A DNA stretch of 35,513 nucleotides. Source: an uncultured Sporosarcina sp. (GTDB taxonomy: Bacteria; Bacillota; Bacilli; Bacillales_A; Planococcaceae). Positions 14,110-30,661 of the stretch are shown here, piece by piece (position 1 is the stretch's first letter; each line of letters begins with the position of its first letter). The DNA lies in the NCBI GenBank assembly GCA_947644645.1, contig CANSAF010000026.1, forward strand, positions 1 through 35,513. The letters are read 5' to 3'. The notes beneath the pieces are model-generated. The model was not told the origin of the DNA. It did no database searches and saw nothing but the letters and a program-made list of their open reading frames with translations. The position numbers and the translations under genes were made by a program.

Positions 14110-14360
14110 ATTTGAATTTATTTATAATGACGTTGAAAGAGACAGTACTTTTTTGTTAATTATAAAGCGAGCTAGGGATGGTGAAAGCCTGGTTAAAAGA
14201 CAAATTAGGAAAATCACTCTGGAGTTGGATTACAGAAATAATGTAAGTAATCCCGGTCTATACCTCCGTTACTGGTAACTTAAGTGGCAGCAAGCTTTTT
14301 TCGCTGCAAGTAGGGTGGTAACGCGAGCGAAACTCGTCCCTTTTTAGGGGCGGGTTTTTT
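14110..14360 (+). promoter_or_regulatory. Isoleucine T-box riboswitch
   Basis: tRNA-sensing leader that lets transcription into ileS continue when uncharged tRNA-Ile accumulates. Stem I contains the CACTCTGGAG segment directly after an ATC triplet (14213-14215), read here as the isoleucine specifier. The conserved T-box bulge sequence AGGGTGGTAACGCG begins at about 14312. The alternative terminator is AACTCGTCCC (14331-14340) with AGGGGCGGGT and a T run at 14346-14360. The stem I internal details were not modelled. Confidence 0.92.
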
Positions 14361-14391: not shown

Positions 14392-17157
14392 ATGGAGTAT
14401 AAAGATACATTATTAATGCCGAAAACAGATTTCCCGATGCGTGGTAATTTACCGAAAAGAGAGCCAGCACTGCAAACAGAGTGGGATGAAAAAAATATTT
14501 ATGAAAAAGTCCAAGAACGTACGAAAGGAAGACCTTTCTTCGTTCTACATGATGGACCGCCGTACGCGAATGGTGATATCCATATGGGGCATGCGTTAAA
14601 TAAAGTGCTAAAAGACATTATCGTTCGTCATAAATCAATGACAGGTTATCATGCGCCTTATGTTCCTGGTTGGGATACGCATGGTTTACCAATCGAGCAA
14701 GCTTTAGTAAATACAGGTGTAGATCGTAAAGAGCATTCATTAGCAGAATTCCGTCGTATGTGTGAGGAATATGCGCTAGAACAAATCGATCGTCAACGTA
14801 CACAGTTTAAACGTTTAGGTGTTCGTGCAGATTGGGAAAATCCATATATTACATTAAAGCCTGAATATGAATCACGTCAAATTGAAGTATTCGGTGAAAT
14901 GGCGAAAAAAGGCTATATTTATAAAGGTTTAAAACCAGTTTACTGGTCACCATCAAGTGAATCGGCATTAGCGGAAGCTGAAATTGAATATAAAGATAAG
15001 CGTTCACCATCTATTTATGTGAGTTTCCCGGTAAAAGACGGCGGAGATGTATTAGCTGAAGACGTTCATTTCTTAATCTGGACGACGACGCCTTGGACAA
15101 TTCCGGCAAACTTAGGAATTACAGTGCATCCTGACTTTAACTATATTGTGGTTCGTGCAAATGATAAAAAGTTTGTCATTGCTGAAGATTTACTGGACTT
15201 TGTTTCAAAAGAACTTGAGTGGGAAGAGCATACAATTGAAAAAGTTGTGAAAGGTACAGAACTTGAAAGATTGGTTGCGAAACACCCAATTTATGACCGT
15301 GATTCACTGATCATGTTAGGCGATCATGTTACAACAGATGCGGGTACGGGTTGTGTTCATACAGCACCAGGTCACGGGGAAGATGACTTCTATGTTTCTA
15401 AAGAATACGGTATTGATGCACTTTCTCCAGTAGACCATAAAGGTGTTATGACTGCTGAAGTTCCAGGCTTTGAAGGATTATTTTATGAAGATGCAAATAA
15501 AGCAGTTGGCGAAGCATTAGAAGAAGCTGGTGCTTTAGAGAAAATTTCATTCATCAAACACTCTTATCCACATGACTGGCGTACGAAAAAACCGGTTATT
15601 TACCGTGCAACAGCACAATGGTTTGCATCGATTGAATCATTCCGTGACGAATTATTAGAGGCGATTAAAGAAACAACATTCACACCTTCATGGGGTGAAA
15701 CAAGACTTCATAATATGGTTCGTGACCGTGGAGACTGGTGTATTTCTCGTCAGCGTGTATGGGGTGTTCCAATTCCAGTGTTTTACGCTGAAAACGGCGA
15801 AGAAATTATTACAGATGAAACAATCGCACATGTTGCGAAATTATTCCGTGAGCACGGTTCAAATGTTTGGTTTGAGCGTGAAGCGAAAGAGTTACTGCCA
15901 GAAGGCTTTACACATGCAGGTAGTCCGAACGGCGAGTTTACGAAAGAAACGGATATTATGGACGTTTGGTTCGACTCTGGTTCATCACACCGCGGTGTGC
16001 TTGTAGAAAGAGACGATCTTGTGTATCCAGCTGATTTATATTTAGAAGGATCTGACCAATACCGTGGTTGGTTTAACTCATCATTAACGACAAGTGTTGC
16101 GATGCATGGTCATGCACCTTATAAAGGTTTATTAAGTCATGGTTTCGCGTTAGATGGTAAAGGACATAAGATGAGTAAATCTGTTGGGAACGTTGTTGTC
16201 CCAACAAAAGTAATGGATCAATTCGGTGCGGAAATTTTAAGATTATGGGTATCATCTGTTGATTATACAGCGGATGTGCGTGTTTCTGATTCGAACTTTA
16301 AACAAGTTTCGGAAGTTTACCGTAAAATCCGTAATACATTCCGTTTCTTACACGGAAATACATCGGACTTTAACCCAGCGACAGATCGTGTTGAGTTCGA
16401 TGATTTACGTCCAGTTGACCAATATGTCTACGTGAAACTTCAAGATTTAATCGAAGAAGTGCGCAGTGCTTATGATCGTTTTGATTTTGCAGCTGTTTAT
16501 CATGCAGTGAATAATTTCTGTACAGGAATTTTAAGTTCGTTCTATTTAGATATCGCAAAAGACGTTGTCTATATCGAACATAAAGAACATTTACACCGTC
16601 GTGCAATGCAAACAGTGATGTACGATACATTGCTTGCACTTGTGAAATGTTTAACACCTATCTTACCGCATACAGCAGATGAAATGTGGGCGCATTTAGA
16701 GCATGTTGAGGAAGAAAGTGTTCAATTAACAGATATGCCAGAAGCACAAGACTTAGGTGAAAAAGCGACAGAATTGAAAGAGCGTTTTGCAACATTAATG
16801 GCAGTGCGTGATGATGTCTTAAAAGCATTAGAAGTTGCACGTAATGAAAAAGGCATCGGGAAATCACTTGAAGCAAAAGTAACAGTGTTTGTCAAAGAAG
16901 GACTTGAAGATGTATTTAAAGCAGAAGATGTCGATTTTGCACAGTTCTTCATTGTTTCTAAATTCGTTGAAGGTGACGCAGCGAATGTTCCAGCTGAGGC
17001 ACTTGAACTTGAACATGCACATGTTTTAGTTGAAGAAGCAGACGGCGAGAAATGTGAGCGTTGCTGGACAATTTCTGAAACAGTCGGCAACAACGAAAAG
17101 CATCCAGAAGTTTGTGAACGTTGTGCGGATGTTGTTGTGAATCATTACGAAGCTTAA
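14392..17157 (+). CDS. ileS: Isoleucine--tRNA ligase (zinc-finger type)
   Basis: Class I aminoacyl-tRNA synthetase charging tRNA-Ile. The 921-residue protein has the HIGH motif as HMGH at residues 64-67 and the CP1 editing domain with [14 protein letters not shown] is at 593-597, followed by the anticodon-binding domain. The C-terminal zinc site has Cys 888, 891, 908 and 911 (CERCW...VCERC). This is the bacterial type 1 form, in line with the T-box control. AAAGGAGG precedes the ATG, and a terminator follows within 10 bases of the stop. Confidence 0.98.
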
Positions 17158-18941: not shown

Positions 18942-19160
18942 AGCGAATAAAATAACAGTCACTTGAAATCCTGTGAGATGAACAGTCACTGTTTCATTCG
19001 TCGAAAAGATTCGATGAAAATTCAATAGCGATACCTTTAAAGTCAGTCCAGAGAGGCTGGGAAGGTTGCACGGAACGTACAGTGGCATCTTTATGCCCAT
19101 TTTACTGTACAATTTTTCTGCAAGTTTACCTCCCGTCCTAAATGGCGGGAGGTTTTTTTG
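18942..19160 (+). promoter_or_regulatory. PyrR-dependent transcription attenuator
   Basis: Leader RNA of the pyr operon. The PyrR-binding loop is very clear: AGTCCAGAGAGGCT followed by GGGAAGGTT (about 19045-19067), framed by an ACCTT/AAGGT stem (19033-19066). A GTACAGT/ACTGTAC hairpin (19078-19109) follows. The terminator is ACCTCCCG (19128-19135) with CGGGAGGT (19146-19153) and seven T. When UMP-bound PyrR holds the binding loop, the terminator forms and transcription stops. Confidence 0.93.
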
Positions 19161-19205
19161 TCTGCATTTAGCAGAAGTTCCAAAACAACATAAATTCCCA
19201 AGTGA

Positions 19206-19769
<564 letters not shown>

Positions 19770-19796: not shown

Positions 19797-21077
19797 ATGA
19801 ATGGAAAAGTTTTAGATGTACATGAAAAACCGACAGCGGGTAAATGGTTAACGCTTAGTCTGCAGCATATGTTTGCGATGTTTGGGGCAACGATTTTAGT
19901 CCCACAACTCGTTGGATTAAGCCCAGCAATTGCCCTTTTAACAAGCGGGATTGCAACGATTATTTTTATCATCGTTACACGCTTTCAAGTGCCAGCTTAT
20001 TTAGGATCATCATTTGCTTTCATTATTCCAATTCAAATCGCCACAACAACGGGTGGAATTGGCAGTGCAATGATTGGAAGCATGTTCGTCGCACTCGTTT
20101 ATGCGATTGTTTCACTCGTCATTTGGAAAACAGGTTATGAGTGGATTATGAAAATTTTACCGCCGATTGTCGTCGCGCCAGTCATTATGGTTATCGGACT
20201 TGCGTTAGCACCAACAGCGGTAGGAATGGCAAGCACAATTGACGTGGACGGAGAATCAGTTTACAGCTTACTCCATTTCTCAGCTGCACTTGTGACTTTA
20301 ATCTCAGCAATTATTTGTATTATGTTTTTCAAAGGTGTTATTAGTTTAATGCCGATCTTAATCGGAATTATTACAGGATATATTTACTCAGCATTCGTTG
20401 GCATTTTAGATTTTACAGCAGTAAAGGAAGCAAAATGGTTTGCGATGCCGGAATTACTAATACCAGGAATCGACTATGAATTTGTCGTCACACCAACATT
20501 ACTTGCAGTTATGGTCCCAATCGCGATCGTAACAATTTCAGAACATATTGGGCATCAACTCGTACTTGGACGCATTGTAGACCGCGACTATATTAAAGAA
20601 CCGGGCTTACATCGTTCATTACTTGGAGACGGAATTGGAACACTGATCAGTGGATTTGTTGGCGGACCACCGAAAACGACATACGGTGAAAATATCGGTG
20701 TCTTAGCAATTACGCGCGTTTACAGTGTTTACGTCATTATGGGTGCAGCGGTGTTTGCGATTATCTTCTCTTTCTTCGGAAAAGTGATGGCAATGATTGG
20801 CACAATTCCACCAGCAGTACTGGGCGGCATTTCAATTCTACTGTTCGGAATTATCGCGTCATCTGGTTTACGCATGTTCGTCGACCATAACATCGACTTT
20901 GGCAATCAACGTAATTTAGTGATCGCATCAGTCATCCTAGTCATTGGAATCGGTGGTGCATCGATTCAGTTCACTGAAACATTCGCAATAGAAGGAATGG
21001 CATTAGCTGCAATCGTTGGTGTTCTGTTAAACTTAATATTACCGGGTAAAACAGAGAAGAAATTAACGGATTTATAA
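19797..21077 (+). CDS. pyrP: Uracil permease (NCS2/UraA family)
   Basis: Membrane symporter importing uracil. The 426-residue protein has 12 or more hydrophobic segments. Family motifs include the N-terminal WLTLSLQHMFAMFGATILVP, AYLGSSFAFI, ISEHIGHQLVLGRIVDRDY and GFVGGPPKTTYGENIGVLAITRVYS, where the conserved Glu residues of helices 8 and 10 are present. It follows pyrR after 27 bases. The 113 bases between it and pyrB hold an AT-flanked hairpin but no PyrR site. Confidence 0.95.
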   Translation: MNGKVLDVHEKPTAGKWLTLSLQHMFAMFGATILVPQLVGLSPAIALLTSGIATIIFIIVTRFQVPAYLGSSFAFIIPIQIATTTGGIGSAMIGSMFVALVYAIVSLVIWKTGYEWIMKILPPIVVAPVIMVIGLALAPTAVGMASTIDVDGESVYSLLHFSAALVTLISAIICIMFFKGVISLMPILIGIITGYIYSAFVGILDFTAVKEAKWFAMPELLIPGIDYEFVVTPTLLAVMVPIAIVTISEHIGHQLVLGRIVDRDYIKEPGLHRSLLGDGIGTLISGFVGGPPKTTYGENIGVLAITRVYSVYVIMGAAVFAIIFSFFGKVMAMIGTIPPAVLGGISILLFGIIASSGLRMFVDHNIDFGNQRNLVIASVILVIGIGGASIQFTETFAIEGMALAAIVGVLLNLILPGKTEKKLTDL

Positions 21078-21190: not shown

Positions 21191-22069
21191 ATGGAACATT
21201 TCGTATCAACAACAAACCTTACAATAGAAGAAATTGATTCATTATTAGACCGTGCTGAAAATTTCAGTAAATATGGATCAAGAGAATTGCCCGGGAAATA
21301 TATCGTAAGTAACTTATTTTTCGAACCGAGCACGAGAACGAAAATGAGTTTTGAAGTTGCCGAGCGAAAACTTGGATTAGATGTAATTCCTTTTGAATCA
21401 GGTTTCTCGAGTACATTAAAAGGGGAAACATTGTACGATACTGTGAAAACTTTTGAAGCAATTGGCGTAGATGCACTCGTCATTCGTCACGAAGATGAAG
21501 GCTACTACGAAGAGTTAATCGGTAAAACAAATGTTGCTATCATTAATGGTGGAGATGGTTCGGGACAGCATCCGACACAATCCCTACTCGACTTATTTAC
21601 AATTCGAGAAGAGTTCGGCACATTTGAAGGTTTGAATATCGTCATTGCAGGGGATATCGCACATAGTCGTGTCGCAAAGTCGAATCGTGATACACTGACA
21701 AGACTTGGTGCAAACGTAACATTTCTTTGTCCAGATGAATGGAAAGGCGAATTCGACGCTGTCCATGAATGGAATGATGAAATTTTAAAGAGTGATGTCA
21801 TTATGCTTTTACGTGTTCAACACGAAAGACATGACGGCAAAATGACATTTACAAAAGAAGCTTATCATGATCAATACGGTTTAACTGTTGAACGTGCAAA
21901 TCAAATGAAAGAAAATGCAATCATCATGCATCCAGCACCTTTTAACCGCGGTGTGGAAATCGATGAGGAATTAATTGAATGCGAAAAATCAAGAATTTTC
22001 AAGCAGATGGAAAATGGTGTTTATGTCCGAATGGCAGTATTAGAAGCAATACTAAATGGGAGGAATTAA
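21191..22069 (+). CDS. pyrB: Aspartate carbamoyltransferase catalytic subunit
   Basis: Joins carbamoyl phosphate to aspartate, the first committed step of pyrimidine synthesis. The 292-residue chain has the carbamoyl phosphate motif [11 protein letters not shown] near residues 43-53, the SSTLKGET loop, the [12 protein letters not shown] motif, the aspartate-binding [10 protein letters not shown] and the closing [12 protein letters not shown]. No regulatory subunit gene is nearby, as is usual in Bacillales. ATG 21191 is chosen behind GGAAGGGG; the upstream in-frame codon at 21167 lacks a ribosome site. The next start follows one base after the stop. Confidence 0.97.
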
Positions 22070-22070
22070 C

Positions 22071-23348
22071 ATGACAAAACTTATTCAAGCAGTTCAATTA
22101 TTAAACGAAGCAGGCGAAATGGTTACAGGAGACGTTCGAATTGAAGGCAATAAAATTGCAGAAATCGGCGAAAATCTTCCAGTGAATGATGCAACAACAA
22201 TTGATGGAAAAGGTTTGTTTTTATCGCCAGGATTTATCGATGTACATGTTCATTTACGTGAGCCAGGCGGCGAGCATAAAGAAACAATTGAAACAGGGAC
22301 ATTAGCAGCAGCAAAAGGCGGTTACACAACGATTTGTGCAATGCCAAATACACGTCCAGTACCAGATACGAAAGAAAACTTAAACTATGTCAATGAATTA
22401 ATCGAAAAAAACGCAAAAATCCGAGTTTTGCCATATGCGTCAATCACAATTCGCGAAGCAGGAAAAGAACGTACAAACTTAGCGGAATTAAAAGAACACG
22501 GTGCGTTTGCTTTCACAGATGACGGTGTTGGGGTACAAGCGGCTGGCATGATGTATGAAGCTATGCAAGACGCTGCAAAGCTTGATATGGCAATCGTTGC
22601 CCATTGTGAAGATAATACACTTATTTACGGCGGCGCACTTCATGAAGGTAAGCGCAATAAAGAATTAGGTTTACCAGGAATTCCTTCCATTGCAGAATCA
22701 GTACATATTGCAAGAGATGTGTTACTCGCAGAAGCTGCGGGCGCACATTACCACGTCTGCCACGTCAGTACGAAAGAATCTGTTCGTACAATTCGCGATG
22801 CGAAAAAAGCAGGTATTCGCGTAACGGCAGAAGTGAGTCCCCACCACCTTCTATTATCAGAAAACGATATTCCAGGGGATGATGCAGACTGGAAAATGAA
22901 CCCACCACTTCGCGGAGAAGATGATTTACAAGCGTTACGTGAAGGTTTATTAGATGGCACATTAGACTTTATCGCAACAGATCACGCACCACATACAGCT
23001 GAAGAAAAAGCAGCAGGCGTTGCGAAAGCACCATTCGGTATTACAGGTTTTGAAACAGCTTTCCCACTTCTTTACACAAACTTTGTAAAAACAGGGAAAT
23101 GGACAATGAAACAACTGATTGACTGGATGACAAAGAAACCAGCTGAAGTATTCAACTTACCATACGGCACATTAGCAGTTGGTGAAGAAGCTGACTTAGT
23201 GTTAATCGACTTAAATAAAGAAGAGAAAATTGACCGCAATACATTTTTATCAAAAGGAAAGAATACACCATTTGATGGTTGGGCATGTGCTGGATGGCCA
23301 GTGAAAACAATTTACGGCGGAGAAATCGTTTGGGAGGATGAGCAATAA
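22071..23348 (+). CDS. pyrC: Dihydroorotase, type I
   Basis: Zinc amidohydrolase that cyclises carbamoyl aspartate to dihydroorotate. The 425-residue protein has the metal motif [11 protein letters not shown] (His 59 and 61), the FTDDG segment, the VAHCED and YHVCHVST histidine motifs and [12 protein letters not shown]. The amidohydrolase beta-sandwich end ([15 protein letters not shown]) closes it. ATG 22071 has GGGAGGAATT upstream. The stop overlaps the next start by one base (TAATG). Confidence 0.97.
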
Positions 23349-24451
23349 TGAAGAAAAGAATGCTGATTTTAGAGGATGGAACGACATTCGAAGGCTATGC
23401 TTTCGGATCAGACGAAGCATCTGTAGGTGAAACAGTTTTTACAACAGGCATGACTGGTTACCAAGAAACGATTTCTAACCCATCAAACTGTGGACAAATT
23501 ATTGTTATGACGTATCCGCTAATCGGCGCATATGGCATTAATCGTGATGATTTCGAATCAATCGACTCTTCGATGAACGGAATTGTTGTTCGTGAATTAG
23601 AAGATGCACCGTCGAACTTCAGAAATGATATGACATTAGGCGAATGGTTAGTACAGAAAAATATTCCGGGTATCGAAGGTGTAGACACGAGAAAATTAAC
23701 GCGTTTACTGCGTGAAAAAGGTCCATTAAAAGGAAAATTAACAGCGGCAAACGAAGAAATTCAAAACGTAGACGCGGAAGTTGAAGCAGTGAAAAATACA
23801 GAACTACCAACAGATTTAGTGGCGCAAGTATCAACGAAACGTCCTTACCCAAGCCCAGGAAGAGGCAAGCGCGTTGTTGTGATTGACTATGGTATGAAAC
23901 ACGGGATTTTACGTGAATTAAATAAAAGAAACTGCGATGTGATTGTCGTTCCTTACAATACAACATCTGAAGAAATTATTTCATTATTCCCAGATGGCAT
24001 CGTCTTAACAAATGGTCCGGGAAACCCAGCGCATGTAGAAGATGCAGTAGAAACGATTCAATCATTAGTCGGTAAAGCGCCGATTTTCGGGATTGGATTA
24101 GGTCACCAATTATTAGCTTTAAGCCAAGGAGCAGAAGTTGTTCAACTACCATCTGGTCACCGCGGCAGCAATATTCCGGTGAAAGACTTAAAAACAGGTC
24201 GCACAGAATTAACAGCACAAAATCATGGCTATGCAGTTGATCAAAAATCAATTGAAAAGACAACTTTAAAAGTGACACATATCGCTTTAAATGATGACTC
24301 AATTGAAGGGTTAGAATGTACGAAAGAACCGATTTTCTCGGTACAATTTTATCCGGAAGCAGCACCAGGACCGGAAGATGCAAACCATTTATTCGACCGC
24401 TTTATGGACTTAATGAACGCGCAAAACCGAAAGGAGCAAAACAATGCCTAA
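23348..24451 (+). CDS. pyrAA: Carbamoyl phosphate synthase small subunit lacking its catalytic Cys and His
   Basis: By family and place this is the glutaminase subunit that releases ammonia from glutamine for the synthetase subunit. It has 367 residues and an intact frame: N-terminal CPSase domain ([36 protein letters not shown]), then the class I amidotransferase domain with TNGPGNP. The nucleophile motif, normally GICLGHQ, reads GIGLGHQ: the catalytic Cys is Gly 250 (codon GGA at 24095). The triad motif HPEASPG reads YPEAAPG: the catalytic His is Tyr 335 (TAT at 24350). Glu 337 is kept. Glutamine hydrolysis should therefore be lost, leaving ammonia as the nitrogen donor. The family call is certain; the loss of activity is inferred. 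Confidence 0.93.
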
Positions 24452-27400
24452 ACGTACAGATATCGAAACGATTTTAGTAATTGGATCAGGACCAATCGTC
24501 ATTGGTCAAGCAGCAGAATTTGACTATGCGGGAACACAAGCTTGTGTTTCATTAAAAGAAGAGGGGTACCGAGTTATTTTAATTAACTCAAACCCAGCGA
24601 CAATTATGACGGATACAGAAATTGCAGACAAAGTGTATATTGAACCAATTACATTAGAATTCGTCAGCCGCATTATTCGTAAAGAACGTCCAGATGCATT
24701 ACTTGCGACACTCGGTGGTCAAACAGGACTAAATATGGCGATTGAATTACATGAGTCAGGCATTTTAGATGAATTAAACATCGAAATTTTAGGAACGAAA
24801 TTGGATGCGATTCATCAAGCGGAAGACCGTGATTTATTCAGAACATTAATGAATGAACTTGGAGAGCCAGTTCCAGAAAGTGATATCATCCATAATCTTG
24901 AAGAAGCTCATACATTTGTTAAACGTATCGGCTATCCAGTAATCGTTCGTCCAGCCTTTACTTTAGGCGGAACGGGTGGCGGAATTTGTCATAATGATGC
25001 AGAGTTAGAAGAAATCGTTTCATACGGATTGAAAGCAAGTCCTGTAACACAATGTTTATTGGAAAAATCGATTGCAGGCTTTAAAGAGATTGAATATGAA
25101 GTGATGCGCGATAGCCAAGATAACGCAATTGTTGTATGTAATATGGAAAACGTTGACGCAGTTGGAATTCATACAGGAGACTCAATCGTTACAGCGCCAA
25201 GCCAAACATTAACAGATCGTGAATACCAAATGTTACGAAATGTTTCACTGAAAATCATTCGCGCACTTGGAATCGAAGGTGGTTGTAACGTACAATTAGC
25301 ACTCGATCCAGATAGCTTTAACTATTATATTATTGAAGTAAACCCGCGTGTGAGCCGTTCTTCAGCGCTAGCATCGAAAGCAACAGGATATCCGATTGCG
25401 AAGTTAGCAGCGAAAATTGCGGTTGGTTTAACATTAGACGAAATGAAAAACCCAGTAACAGGCACGACTTATGCATGTTTCGAGCCGACACTTGACTACG
25501 TTGTAACGAAAATTCCACGTTGGCCTTTCGATAAATTCGAATCGGCAAAACGTAATTTAGGTACACAAATGAAAGCGACTGGAGAAGTCATGGCAATTGG
25601 CCGTAGCTTTGAAGAGTCAATTTTAAAAGCGGTACGTTCACTTGAAATGGGCTTCTTTGACCTATCTTTAAAAGACGGTGCTGAAAAAGATATGGCATGG
25701 ATTGAAAAACGAATCCGTCGTGCAGGTGATGAGCGTTTATTCTACGTTGGTGAAGCACTGCGCAGAGGCGTTTCAATCGAAACATTACATGAGTGGAGCA
25801 TGATCAACGTCTTCTACTTACGTAAATTCGAGAAAATTGTTCAATTCGAAGCGAAGATTAAAGACGCACCGATGGATGTTGAAGTACTTTATGAAGCAAA
25901 AAGAATGGGCTTCAGTGATGTTACAATTGCGAAGCTTTGGAATAAAACAGAAATGGACATTTATAAACTGCGTAAAGAAAATGACATTATTCCGGTTTAT
26001 AAAAAAGTCGATACATGTGCAGGTGAATACGAGTCAGATACACCATACTTCTACGGTACTTACGAAGAAGAAAACGAATCGATTCGCACGGATAAGAAGA
26101 GCGTGATCGTATTAGGTTCAGGTCCAATTCGTATCGGACAAGGTGTTGAATTTGACTATGCAACAGTTCACTCTGTATGGGCAATCCAAGAAGCAGGTTA
26201 TGAAGCGATTATTGTCAATAATAACCCTGAAACAGTTTCAACAGACTTCTCGATTTCGGATAAGCTTTATTTTGAACCGTTGACATTAGAAGACGTTATG
26301 AACATTATTGATCTAGAGCAACCAGAAGGTGTTATCGTTCAGTTTGGTGGCCAGACGGCGATTAACTTAGCAGATGGGCTTGAAGCACGCGGTGTGAAAA
26401 TTTTAGGGACAACTTTAGAAGATATCGACCGTGCAGAAAACCGTAATAAGTTTGAAAAAGCATTAAGAGAAATTGAAATCCCACAACCACTTGGAAAAAC
26501 AGCAGTATCTGTTCCAGAAGCAGTAGCGATTGCGACTGAAATTGGTTATCCAGTACTTGTAAGACCATCTTACGTACTAGGTGGACGTGCGATGGAAATT
26601 GTTTATCAAGAAGAAGAACTCATTTATTATATGGAACATGCTGTTGAAGCAAGTCCAGAACATCCAGTATTAATTGACCGTTATTTAACGGGAACTGAAA
26701 TTGAAGTCGATGCAATTAGTGATGGAGAGAATGTATTAATTCCAGGAATTATGGAACATATCGAGCGTGCGGGTGTTCACTCAGGTGACTCAATCGCCGT
26801 ATATCCACCACAAAAATTGTCAGAGAAACATGTTGAGACAATCGTTGATTATACGACAAGATTGGCACAAGGTTTAAAAATTATCGGGTTATTAAATATC
26901 CAATACGTTATTTCAAAAGATGAAGTATATGTGATCGAAGTAAACCCACGTTCAAGCCGTACAGTACCATTCTTAAGTAAAATTACGAATGTACCAATGG
27001 CAAATGTAGCAACGAAAGCAGTCCTTGGTCAATCATTACCAGCACAAGGCTATCCAAACGGACTCGTTCAAGCACCAGCAGGCGTTTATGTAAAAGTTCC
27101 TGTCTTCTCGTTCGAAAAATTAGGTCGTGTAGATATTACACTTGGACCTGAAATGAAATCGACTGGGGAAGTTATGGGGAAAGATACAACATTAGAAAAA
27201 GCACTTTATAAAGGGCTTGTTGCAGCAGGTATGGAAGTCAAAGAACATGGCTCAGTATTAATGACTGTGTCAGATAAAGATAAAGAAGAAATTGTGGATA
27301 TTGCAAAACGCTTTAGAGAAATTGGTTACCATATCTTAGCAACATCAGGTACGGCAACAGTTTTACAAGAAGCAGGCATTCGCGTTGAAAAAGTCGATAA

Positions 27401-27637
27401 AATTGGTTCAGAAGGTCCTAATTTACTCGATGTTATTCAAAATGGCGGTGCGCAACTTGTCATTAACACATTGACGAAAGGAAAAGAACCAGAAAGAGAT
27501 GGCTTCCGTATCCGTCGTCAAACAGTAGAAAATGGCATTCCATGTTTAACATCATTAGATACGGCAAACGCGATGCTACGTGTGATTGAATCAATGACAT
27601 TCCAAGCAGAAGCAATGCCAGCTCAGGAGGTAAAACT

Positions 27638-27641
<4 letters not shown>
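24444..27641 (+). CDS. pyrAB: Carbamoyl phosphate synthase large subunit
   Basis: Synthetase subunit that makes carbamoyl phosphate from bicarbonate, ammonia and two ATP. The 1065-residue protein has two homologous ATP-grasp halves: the first opens with [21 protein letters not shown], the second with [22 protein letters not shown] near residue 555. Both contain the [10 protein letters not shown] or [10 protein letters not shown] motif, the ATP-binding [13 protein letters not shown] or [15 protein letters not shown], and EVNPR-S-RSSA or [14 protein letters not shown]-terminal MGS-like allosteric domain ([29 protein letters not shown]) is present. Nothing looks damaged. It overlaps the small subunit gene by 8 bases, behind AAAGGAG. 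Confidence 0.98.
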
Positions 27642-30034
<2,393 letters not shown>

Positions 30035-30035
<1 letters not shown>

Positions 30036-30661
30036 TGAGTCAAAAAGAAATTGCAAAAGTATTGCTGCGCGTTGGTGCAGTTGAATTAAGTCCAAATGAT
30101 CCATTCACATGGGCATCAGGGATCAAATCACCAATTTATTGTGATAACCGTTTAACAATGTCAGATCCAGTCGGACGTATGGATATTGCCAAAGGTTTAG
30201 CAGAATTAATCCGCACAAACTACCCAGAAACAACAGTTATCGCAGGAACGGCAACAGCTGGGATTCCGCATGCGGCATGGGTAGCGGATATTTTAGGATT
30301 GCCAATGGTATATATCCGTTCATCTGCAAAAGGTCATGGCAGAAGCCGCCAAATTGAAGGGAAAATTTCTAAAGACGATAAAGCGATTATCGTTGAAGAT
30401 TTAATTTCAACAGGCGGAAGTAGTTTAAATGCTGCGGCAGCACTTCGTAGTGAAGATGTAGAAGTAACGGGCATCGTATCGATTTTCACGTACGAGTTGA
30501 AAAAAGCGGACGAAGCTTTTGCGGAAGAAAACTTAACATACCATAGCTTAACGAATTTTGGTGCACTTATTGAAGCATCAAATGAAGAAGGTGCAATCGA
30601 AGAATCAGCAATTACTGGTTTACTTGATTGGCATGGTAAATTAAAACAAGATCTTTTATAA
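30035..30661 (+). CDS. pyrE: Orotate phosphoribosyltransferase
   Basis: Makes OMP from orotate and PRPP. The 208-residue protein carries the PRPP motif AIIVEDLISTGGSSLNAA at about 117-134 and the orotate-binding FTWASGIKSPIYCDNRL near 24-40. The flexible loop is RSSAKGHGRSRQIEG. ATG 30035 overlaps the pyrF stop by one base (TAATG); the upstream in-frame codon at 30014 lies well inside pyrF. It is the last gene of the pyr operon, followed by a terminator. Confidence 0.97.

Follow-up and report, generated by a model that had tools for sequence, protein, structure and literature searches.

How does a bacterium make carbamoyl phosphate for its pyrimidines when the small subunit of its carbamoyl phosphate synthetase (CPSase) lacks the residues expected to hydrolyze glutamine? 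The question is raised by the carA gene in a stretch of 35,513 nucleotides from an uncultured Sporosarcina sp. (assembly GCA_947644645.1, contig CANSAF010000026.1, positions 1 to 35,513, forward strand); this whole stretch is referred to below as the window. The comparisons described here point to a CPSase that is very probably fed with ammonia, its small subunit no longer hydrolyzing glutamine, one element in a wider move by the whole genus away from glutamine as a source of nitrogen. The gene and its two altered codons are as follows.

23348..24451, + strand: carA (pyrAA), CPSase small subunit with a glutaminase site predicted to be inactivated, from profile models, motifs and alignment
24095..24097, + strand: GGA (Gly) where the catalytic Cys (E. 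coli Cys269) is expected, from the codon and alignment
24350..24352, + strand: TAT (Tyr) where the catalytic His (E. coli His353) is expected, from the codon and alignment

The carA open reading frame (ORF; 23348-24451, +) is uninterrupted and encodes a product of 367 amino acids (aa). The protein matched the curated CarA models TIGR01368 and NF009475, scoring well over both cut-offs (473.5 bits for a cut-off of 221, and 451.5 for one of 307.35), and both Pfam domains of CarA, the CPSase small-chain domain and the class I glutaminase domain, were detected. It reads FGIGLGHQ in place of FGICLGHQ and FYPEA (YPEA) in place of HPEA, with the catalytic Glu (355) retained. When aligned with E. coli CarA of PDB entry 1c30, a reference that itself reads FGISLGHQ at the nucleophile segment, the window Gly fell at the nucleophile position and the window Tyr at the His of HPEA; the window protein still has the Asn of QNHG (E. 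coli 311). The initial annotation of this DNA, made from the letters, had described both replacements in an open frame and in a tight operon with an intact large subunit. Each of these points was borne out: carB overlaps carA, is full length and scores over curated cut-offs, and residues 1-1040 of the 1065 in its product align with the large chain from E. coli (1123 bits).

Cys-269 and His-353 of E. coli CPSase are described as essential for glutamine hydrolysis (PMC6245113). Compared with a glutamine-hydrolysing small subunit, the window protein has the domain architecture, a score over cut-off and a CarB partner in its operon, together with Gly for the catalytic Cys and Tyr for the His of the His/Glu pair. 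Glutamine hydrolysis by this CarA is predicted, with high confidence, to have been lost. A profile search of the genome, a 3.36 Mb draft in 160 contigs that is 99.88 percent complete, found a single carA. A second, intact copy, which the initial annotation had raised as a possibility, was not found there, the remaining CarA match falling within GuaA. carB is also present in single copy, the further CarB matches being partial with 26-27% identity.

The survey set was composed of 68 Sporosarcina genomes and 193 genomes from the rest of the family. As an outgroup, 28 CarA proteins were examined, 22 of them drawn from elsewhere in the family (12 genera) and 6 from the class. carA was found in 46/68 Sporosarcina genomes, and the nucleophile position is Gly in all 46. 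The codons used are GGA (23), GGT (9), GGC (7) and GGG (7), a spread over four codons that marks the Gly state as old. By contrast Cys, His and Asn are all intact in 28/28 outgroup proteins (Cys codons TGC 20, TGT 8). The Cys loss seen in the window is thus common to every CarA found in the genus, whereas the change of His to Tyr is shared only in part (Tyr in 9/46, His retained in 37/46). A third change, absent from the initial list, affects Asn311 (E. coli numbering) of the QNHG segment, which is lost in 40/46 (N 6, S 24, C 10, G 6). None of the 46 CarA matches has a stop within it. The simplest history would have a single loss of the Cys, either ahead of the genus or early within it, followed in parts of the genus by loss of Asn or His.

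Kinship was taken from a DNA tree of one gene, pyrC, in which a starred branch (99/94) sets the 68 genus rows apart from eight outgroups. carB was found in 50/68 Sporosarcina genomes (E up to 1e-100), and 46 of these 50 retain carA. The other four (G004, G036, G065 and G084) have carB without a carA match at E 1e-20, with a pyrC-carB gap of only 54-85 bases. Both genes are missing from 18/68 genomes, where pyrK directly follows pyrC; these 18 keep pyrR, pyrP, pyrB, pyrC, pyrK, pyrD, pyrF and pyrE, and pyrB is present in 68/68. On the tree, at least three changes are required for carA presence and at least six for carB. In the rest of the family CarA was found in 192/193 genomes; the one without a match, inferred by elimination, is G271, which belongs to another genus.

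The same kind of loss was found in other amidotransferases of the window genome. Its PurQ reads GVGNGFQ and LPER, so that Cys and His are both lost; its PyrG reads GISLGMQ, with Cys lost and HPE retained; and its GuaA reads GICYGTQ, with Cys retained and FEPA in place of FHPE, so that His and Glu are lost. The closest PDB relatives of the three proteins carry intact motifs. A PF00117 search of the genome gave six places, namely CarA, PyrG, GuaA, PurQ (which scored under the cut-off) and, judged by their motifs, a PuuD-like hydrolase and a DJ-1/PfpI-like protein. Neither TrpG/PabA nor HisH was among these six matches, in a single search that a divergent glutaminase could escape. The curated models nevertheless label the window CarA, GuaA and PyrG 'glutamine-hydrolyzing', which is an annotation trap.

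GuaA, PyrG and PurQ were surveyed in 33 of the 68 Sporosarcina genomes and in 11 genomes from 10 other genera, drawn from the 193 other family genomes. All three proteins are intact in 11/11 of the latter. The PyrG Cys is lost in 33/33 Sporosarcina and in 0/11 outgroup genomes, the replacements being Gly, Ser and Ala. Cys and His of PurQ are lost in 29/32 against 0/11, one genome without a PurQ match (G088) being excluded from the count. GuaA lacks Cys at the aligned position in 24/33 against 0/11, with Gly, Ser, Ala, Asn, Asp or Glu in its place. Eight of these 24 (L381-L388) miss a block of the glutaminase domain and measure 433-468 aa instead of 511-517, a natural trimming of GMP synthetase.

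Absence of whole genes was scored from single profile searches, partly in draft genomes. No glutamine synthetase match (PF00120, E up to 1e-10) was found in the window genome, nor in 27 other Sporosarcina genomes (28/68 in all), while 14/14 control genomes gave one. Seven of the Sporosarcina genomes without it are nearly complete single-contig assemblies (G005, G017, G069, G070, G084, G086 and G091). GlmS (TIGR01135) was likewise not found over cut-off in the window genome, against 14/14 positive controls; the model matched best to the N-terminal region of PurF and next to proteins with SIS domains. Loss of glutamine synthetase is not associated with loss of carA (p 0.79).

How far the glutaminase domain has diverged compared with its partner domain was assessed in genus and outgroup using a column bootstrap. 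For PyrG the ratio is 2.52 (2.02-3.06) in Sporosarcina and 1.42 (1.11-1.74) in the outgroup, with separate intervals. For CarA it is 1.39 (1.04-1.94) against 0.79 (0.59-1.04), with intervals that just touch at 1.04; this bootstrap used every second protein (23/46 Sporosarcina), and the figures from all 46 agree. For GuaA it is 2.43 (2.08-2.91) against 1.94 (1.47-2.36). The glutaminase domain is evolving faster relative to its partner inside Sporosarcina than outside, its constraint relaxed, the intervals for GuaA overlapping.

CarA without the Cys also occurs outside the genus. The pattern PxFGI[not Cys]LGHQ was scanned in one genome per species (84,980 species), with Cys and all T-initial codons excluded. 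At least 117 stretches match, and 114 of those listed are CarA homologues. At the nucleophile position, Gly occurs in 100 of these 114, Ser in 5, Ala in 4, Asp in 3, Asn in 1 and Glu in 1; 15/114 of the matches listed are Sporosarcina or Filibacter, and Gly is found in 85/99 of the rest. The proteins listed (L085-L201) are mostly of the Gly type and mostly encoded near carB, often near other pyr genes. They include Lederbergia, Siminovitchia, Oceanobacillus, Allobacillus, many gut Clostridia, Syntrophomonas, Alistipes and two archaeal metagenome-assembled genomes. Many of the matches listed appear, as an impression from titles, to come from ruminant caecum, colon or rectum samples, which are plausibly rich in ammonia.

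A tree was built for 59 Bacilli CarA proteins (18 of the 46 from Sporosarcina, the 28 outgroup proteins, and 13 hand-picked Bacilli from the 114 listed). The Cys-less state changes at least four times on it, and a single origin in the sampled Bacilli was rejected (p-AU 0.0007) in a set that includes long branches. CarA of Edaphobacillus lindanitolerans (L105) has Asn for both Cys and His (GINLGHQ and QFNPEA) and adjoins Sporosarcina on a long, unstarred branch. A Gly-type CarA titled Bacillus subtilis DE0224 (L149) clusters with Lederbergia, and its title may be a misnomer.

The species without CPSase raise the matter of how else carbamoyl phosphate could be supplied. Carbamate kinase (arcC, TIGR00746, E 1e-20) was matched in 18/18 CPSase-less and in 4/4 carB-only genomes against 6/46 with both genes. 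For carA-less genomes against the rest the association has a Fisher p of about 1e-12 with kinship ignored; the tree offers too few independent pairs for significance. The curated cut-off is exceeded in 25 of the 28 arcC genomes, the exceptions being G009, G030 and G022. No arcC match at E 1e-20 was found in the window genome, which leaves CarAB as its only carbamoyl phosphate source found. In 25/28 genomes arcC is adjoined by a gene of one family (L256-L284), of which one member was scanned and proved to be AllG; a further gene beside some arcC loci is AllH. Among four wider arcC stretches, three (L301-L303) have an fdrA-like gene and an AllG-type gene, two of them also an AllH-type gene, and the fourth (L304) has neither an fdrA-like nor an AllG-type gene. 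A neighbourhood of fdrA, AllG and AllH is the setting discussed for oxamate carbamoyltransferase in PMC3364942. The CPSase-less species could therefore obtain carbamoyl phosphate from carbamate via the kinase or have it released from a ureide, and a link from ureide breakdown to pyrimidine synthesis in Sporosarcina is possible. In one of them (G022) several pyr genes and arcC are split between frames (L253, L283 and L284); at 83 percent completeness and 9 percent contamination, sequencing error is the likely cause.

The initial annotation had suggested an ammonia-rich, for example ureolytic, niche. A urease alpha gene is indeed present in the window genome and in 52/68 Sporosarcina genomes, and urease is evidently not required, a match being absent from 16/68. 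The gene was found in 26/28 genomes without glutamine synthetase against 26/40 others (p 0.009, kinship ignored), and was missing from 8/18 CPSase-less genomes against 8/50 others (p 0.023). Urease as the cause of the losses therefore holds only in part, the genomes without glutamine synthetase being richer in urease alpha and the CPSase-less ones lacking it more often.

A single course of events may account for these patterns. In ammonia-rich, often ureolytic habitats, most of these amidotransferases would have come to take their nitrogen from free ammonia; with no further use for glutamine hydrolysis, the glutaminase parts would have decayed stepwise. CPSase, formylglycinamidine ribonucleotide synthetase, CTP synthetase and, in most species, GMP synthetase would draw ammonia from the cell water, the large CPSase subunit combining free ammonia with bicarbonate into carbamoyl phosphate at the cost of two ATP. 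CarA would have been retained in most species because CarB may still depend on it, whether for folding or stability, for regulation, or as an ammonia gate. The nucleophile turn is strained, and the Gly kept there is probably the residue best tolerated by it. Because the replacement is so uniform, Gly appears to be favoured at this position, which suggests some selected role over pure decay.

Judged from the proteins encoded, free ammonia is probably the main nitrogen source from which the window strain makes its nucleotides. Reliance on ammonia for most of these amidotransferase steps is proposed for the genus with good confidence, and a near glutamine-free nitrogen economy with moderate confidence. 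The widest form of the proposal is that Sporosarcina is dismantling glutamine as a nitrogen currency, with purine, pyrimidine and CTP synthesis running mainly on free ammonium, glutamine synthetase and GlmS lost in the window strain, and CPSase replaced in some species by carbamate kinase or oxamate carbamoyltransferase; we rate it somewhat above an even chance. The ammonia-fed CPSase put forward in the initial annotation is thus supported by the sequence tests but was drawn too narrowly, as PyrG, PurQ and mostly GuaA are also affected and glutamine synthetase is absent in 28/68 genomes. Its view of a dead subunit kept for structure agrees with the presence of CarA in 46/50 carB genomes and fits less well with at least three changes in carA and four genomes having carB alone.

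Several observations weigh against this account. According to PMC6245113, ammonia is a substrate for E. coli CPSase only at concentrations so high that they are likely to be irrelevant in physiology, and a better ammonia route has to be assumed for the Sporosarcina enzyme. The window PurF retains its N-terminal Cys (EECGVFG), and because of this some glutamine is probably still used in the strain. PurQ is intact in 3/32 Sporosarcina genomes (G007, G010 and G064), the Cys-His-Glu triad of GuaA is retained in 8/33, glutamine synthetase in 40/68, and the 16 genomes without a urease alpha match belong here as well. The window genome is a draft of 160 contigs, although the seven single-contig congeners named above likewise lack glutamine synthetase. 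Among cultured strains of S. pasteurii, DSM33 grew without glutamine, and others are reported to need it (PMC7775470).

The alternative closest to this account is neutral decay, in which ammonia was never limiting, the glutaminase sites drifted without selected gain, and CPSase runs on ammonia without being adapted to it. The varied replacements in PyrG and GuaA and the faster divergence of the glutaminase domains resemble such relaxation, and we give it nearly an even chance. It is harder to reconcile with a CarA replacement that is Gly in 46/46 while Asn311 in the glutamine pocket drifts; the preference for Gly among the CarA listed from other taxa (100/114, or 85/99 without Sporosarcina and Filibacter) is also more uniform than drift suggests, though shared ancestry may contribute. 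Error is scarcely credible: the draft state of the genome would allow a sequencing or assembly fault or a pseudogene, and the congeners, with the same residue in every CarA, four codons and no internal stops, rule out sequencing error.

Two further explanations concern the route of supply. Glutamine might still be the source if a separate glutaminase, or urease, fed ammonia to CarB with CarA as a docking part, and both the retention of CarA in 46/50 carB genomes and the frequency of urease alpha (52/68) would suit this. The window genome, however, has no glutamine synthetase match, its PF00117 places are limited to the six proteins given above, and its pyr operon shows no fusion or additional gene, so this supply is improbable. 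Only slightly less improbable is an enzyme on its way out, carbamoyl phosphate coming now or later from carbamate kinase or oxamate carbamoyltransferase. In its favour are the arcC matches in all CPSase-less genomes (that of G022 split in two frames) and all carB-only genomes against 6/46 with both subunits, and the AllG-type family gene, one member of which was scanned, beside arcC in 25/28. That association, strong as a table, has too few independent pairs on the tree, and in the window genome, with no arcC match at E 1e-20, CarAB is the only source found. An ammonia-fed CarAB remains the preferred reading for the window.

Known systems resemble the ammonia-fed CPSase in part. In human CPS1, Ser294 replaces the catalytic Cys, external ammonia is used and the inactive domain is kept (PMC4655335). 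Vertebrate CPS1 and Sporosarcina CarA are alike in the replaced Cys of the glutaminase domain. CPS1, however, is a single multidomain chain that needs N-acetylglutamate and serves ureagenesis, as described in the same source, whereas the Sporosarcina enzyme is made of two chains encoded in a pyr operon (23348-24451 and 24444-27641 in the window). CPS1 has Ser, while Sporosarcina has Gly and shares the loss with PyrG, PurQ and GuaA of the same cell. The window CPSase would best be described as a two-chain, ammonia-dependent type that works like CPS1 without being a member of that class, no second intact CarA having been found in the genome. E. coli carAB has the same two-subunit architecture, and each window chain can be aligned with its E. 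coli counterpart almost from end to end; in Sporosarcina, unlike E. coli, the Cys is naturally replaced throughout the genus, with Asn or His also lost in parts.

Carbamate-kinase-fed or citrulline-fed Pyrococcus and Thermococcus resemble the 18 CPSase-less Sporosarcina in having carbamoyl phosphate without a glutamine-dependent CPSase. In T. kodakarensis it is reportedly ArcE and ArcB, rather than carbamate kinase, that proved necessary (PMC13260591), which calls for caution, as arcC in Sporosarcina need not be the carbamoyl phosphate source. Syntrophaceticus schinkii, T. acetatoxydans and Blochmannia vafer are described as ammonium-tolerant or urease-bearing organisms without glutamine synthetase (PMC5113046, PMC3017870); they share this absence with the window strain, and lost glutaminase nucleophiles are not mentioned in the portions of those sources that bear on it. 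Literature searches for Sporosarcina with glutamine amidotransferase, for Sporosarcina with carbamoyl phosphate and pyrimidine, and for glutaminase loss found no report, most subscription journals lying outside the search.

Free ammonia is not regarded as the normal substrate of these enzymes in bacteria. Sporosarcina as a whole appears to be an exception, with CPSase and two or three other amidotransferases affected and the intermediate stages still represented by living species. Why amidotransferases keep their glutaminases becomes directly testable in cultured soil bacteria. Calcite precipitation is a practical use of another member of the genus, S. pasteurii, and there its ammonia physiology matters (PMC7775470).

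The carA gene lies within a pyr operon in the order pyrR-pyrP-pyrB-pyrC-carA-carB-pyrK-pyrD-pyrF-pyrE behind a PyrR site. The start of carA shares one base (23348) with the end of pyrC, and the start of carB (24444) overlaps the end of carA. The remaining features are listed below.

19030..19161, + strand: PyrR binding site (Rfam RF00515) in the pyr operon leader, from Rfam
19227..19769, + strand: pyrR, from a profile model
19797..21077, + strand: pyrP-type uracil permease; best model 442.5 bits, below its cut-off of 477, with an NCS2 superfamily model over its own cut-off
21191..22069, + strand: pyrB, aspartate carbamoyltransferase, the consumer of carbamoyl phosphate, from a profile model
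22071..23348, + strand: pyrC, dihydroorotase, from a profile model
24444..27641, + strand: carB (pyrAB), large (synthetase) subunit of CPSase, found in one copy only, from a profile model and E. coli alignment
27638..28414, + strand: pyrK, from a profile model
28411..29322, + strand: pyrD, from a profile model
29319..30035, + strand: pyrF, from a profile model
30035..30661, + strand: presumably pyrE, which we assign from place and sequence, no model falling within the strict E-value limit

Upstream of the operon, a T-box leader (Rfam RF00230, 143.1 bits) was found at 14124-14344 (+), ahead of a long ORF at 14392 that we take, from its motifs, to encode isoleucyl-tRNA synthetase.

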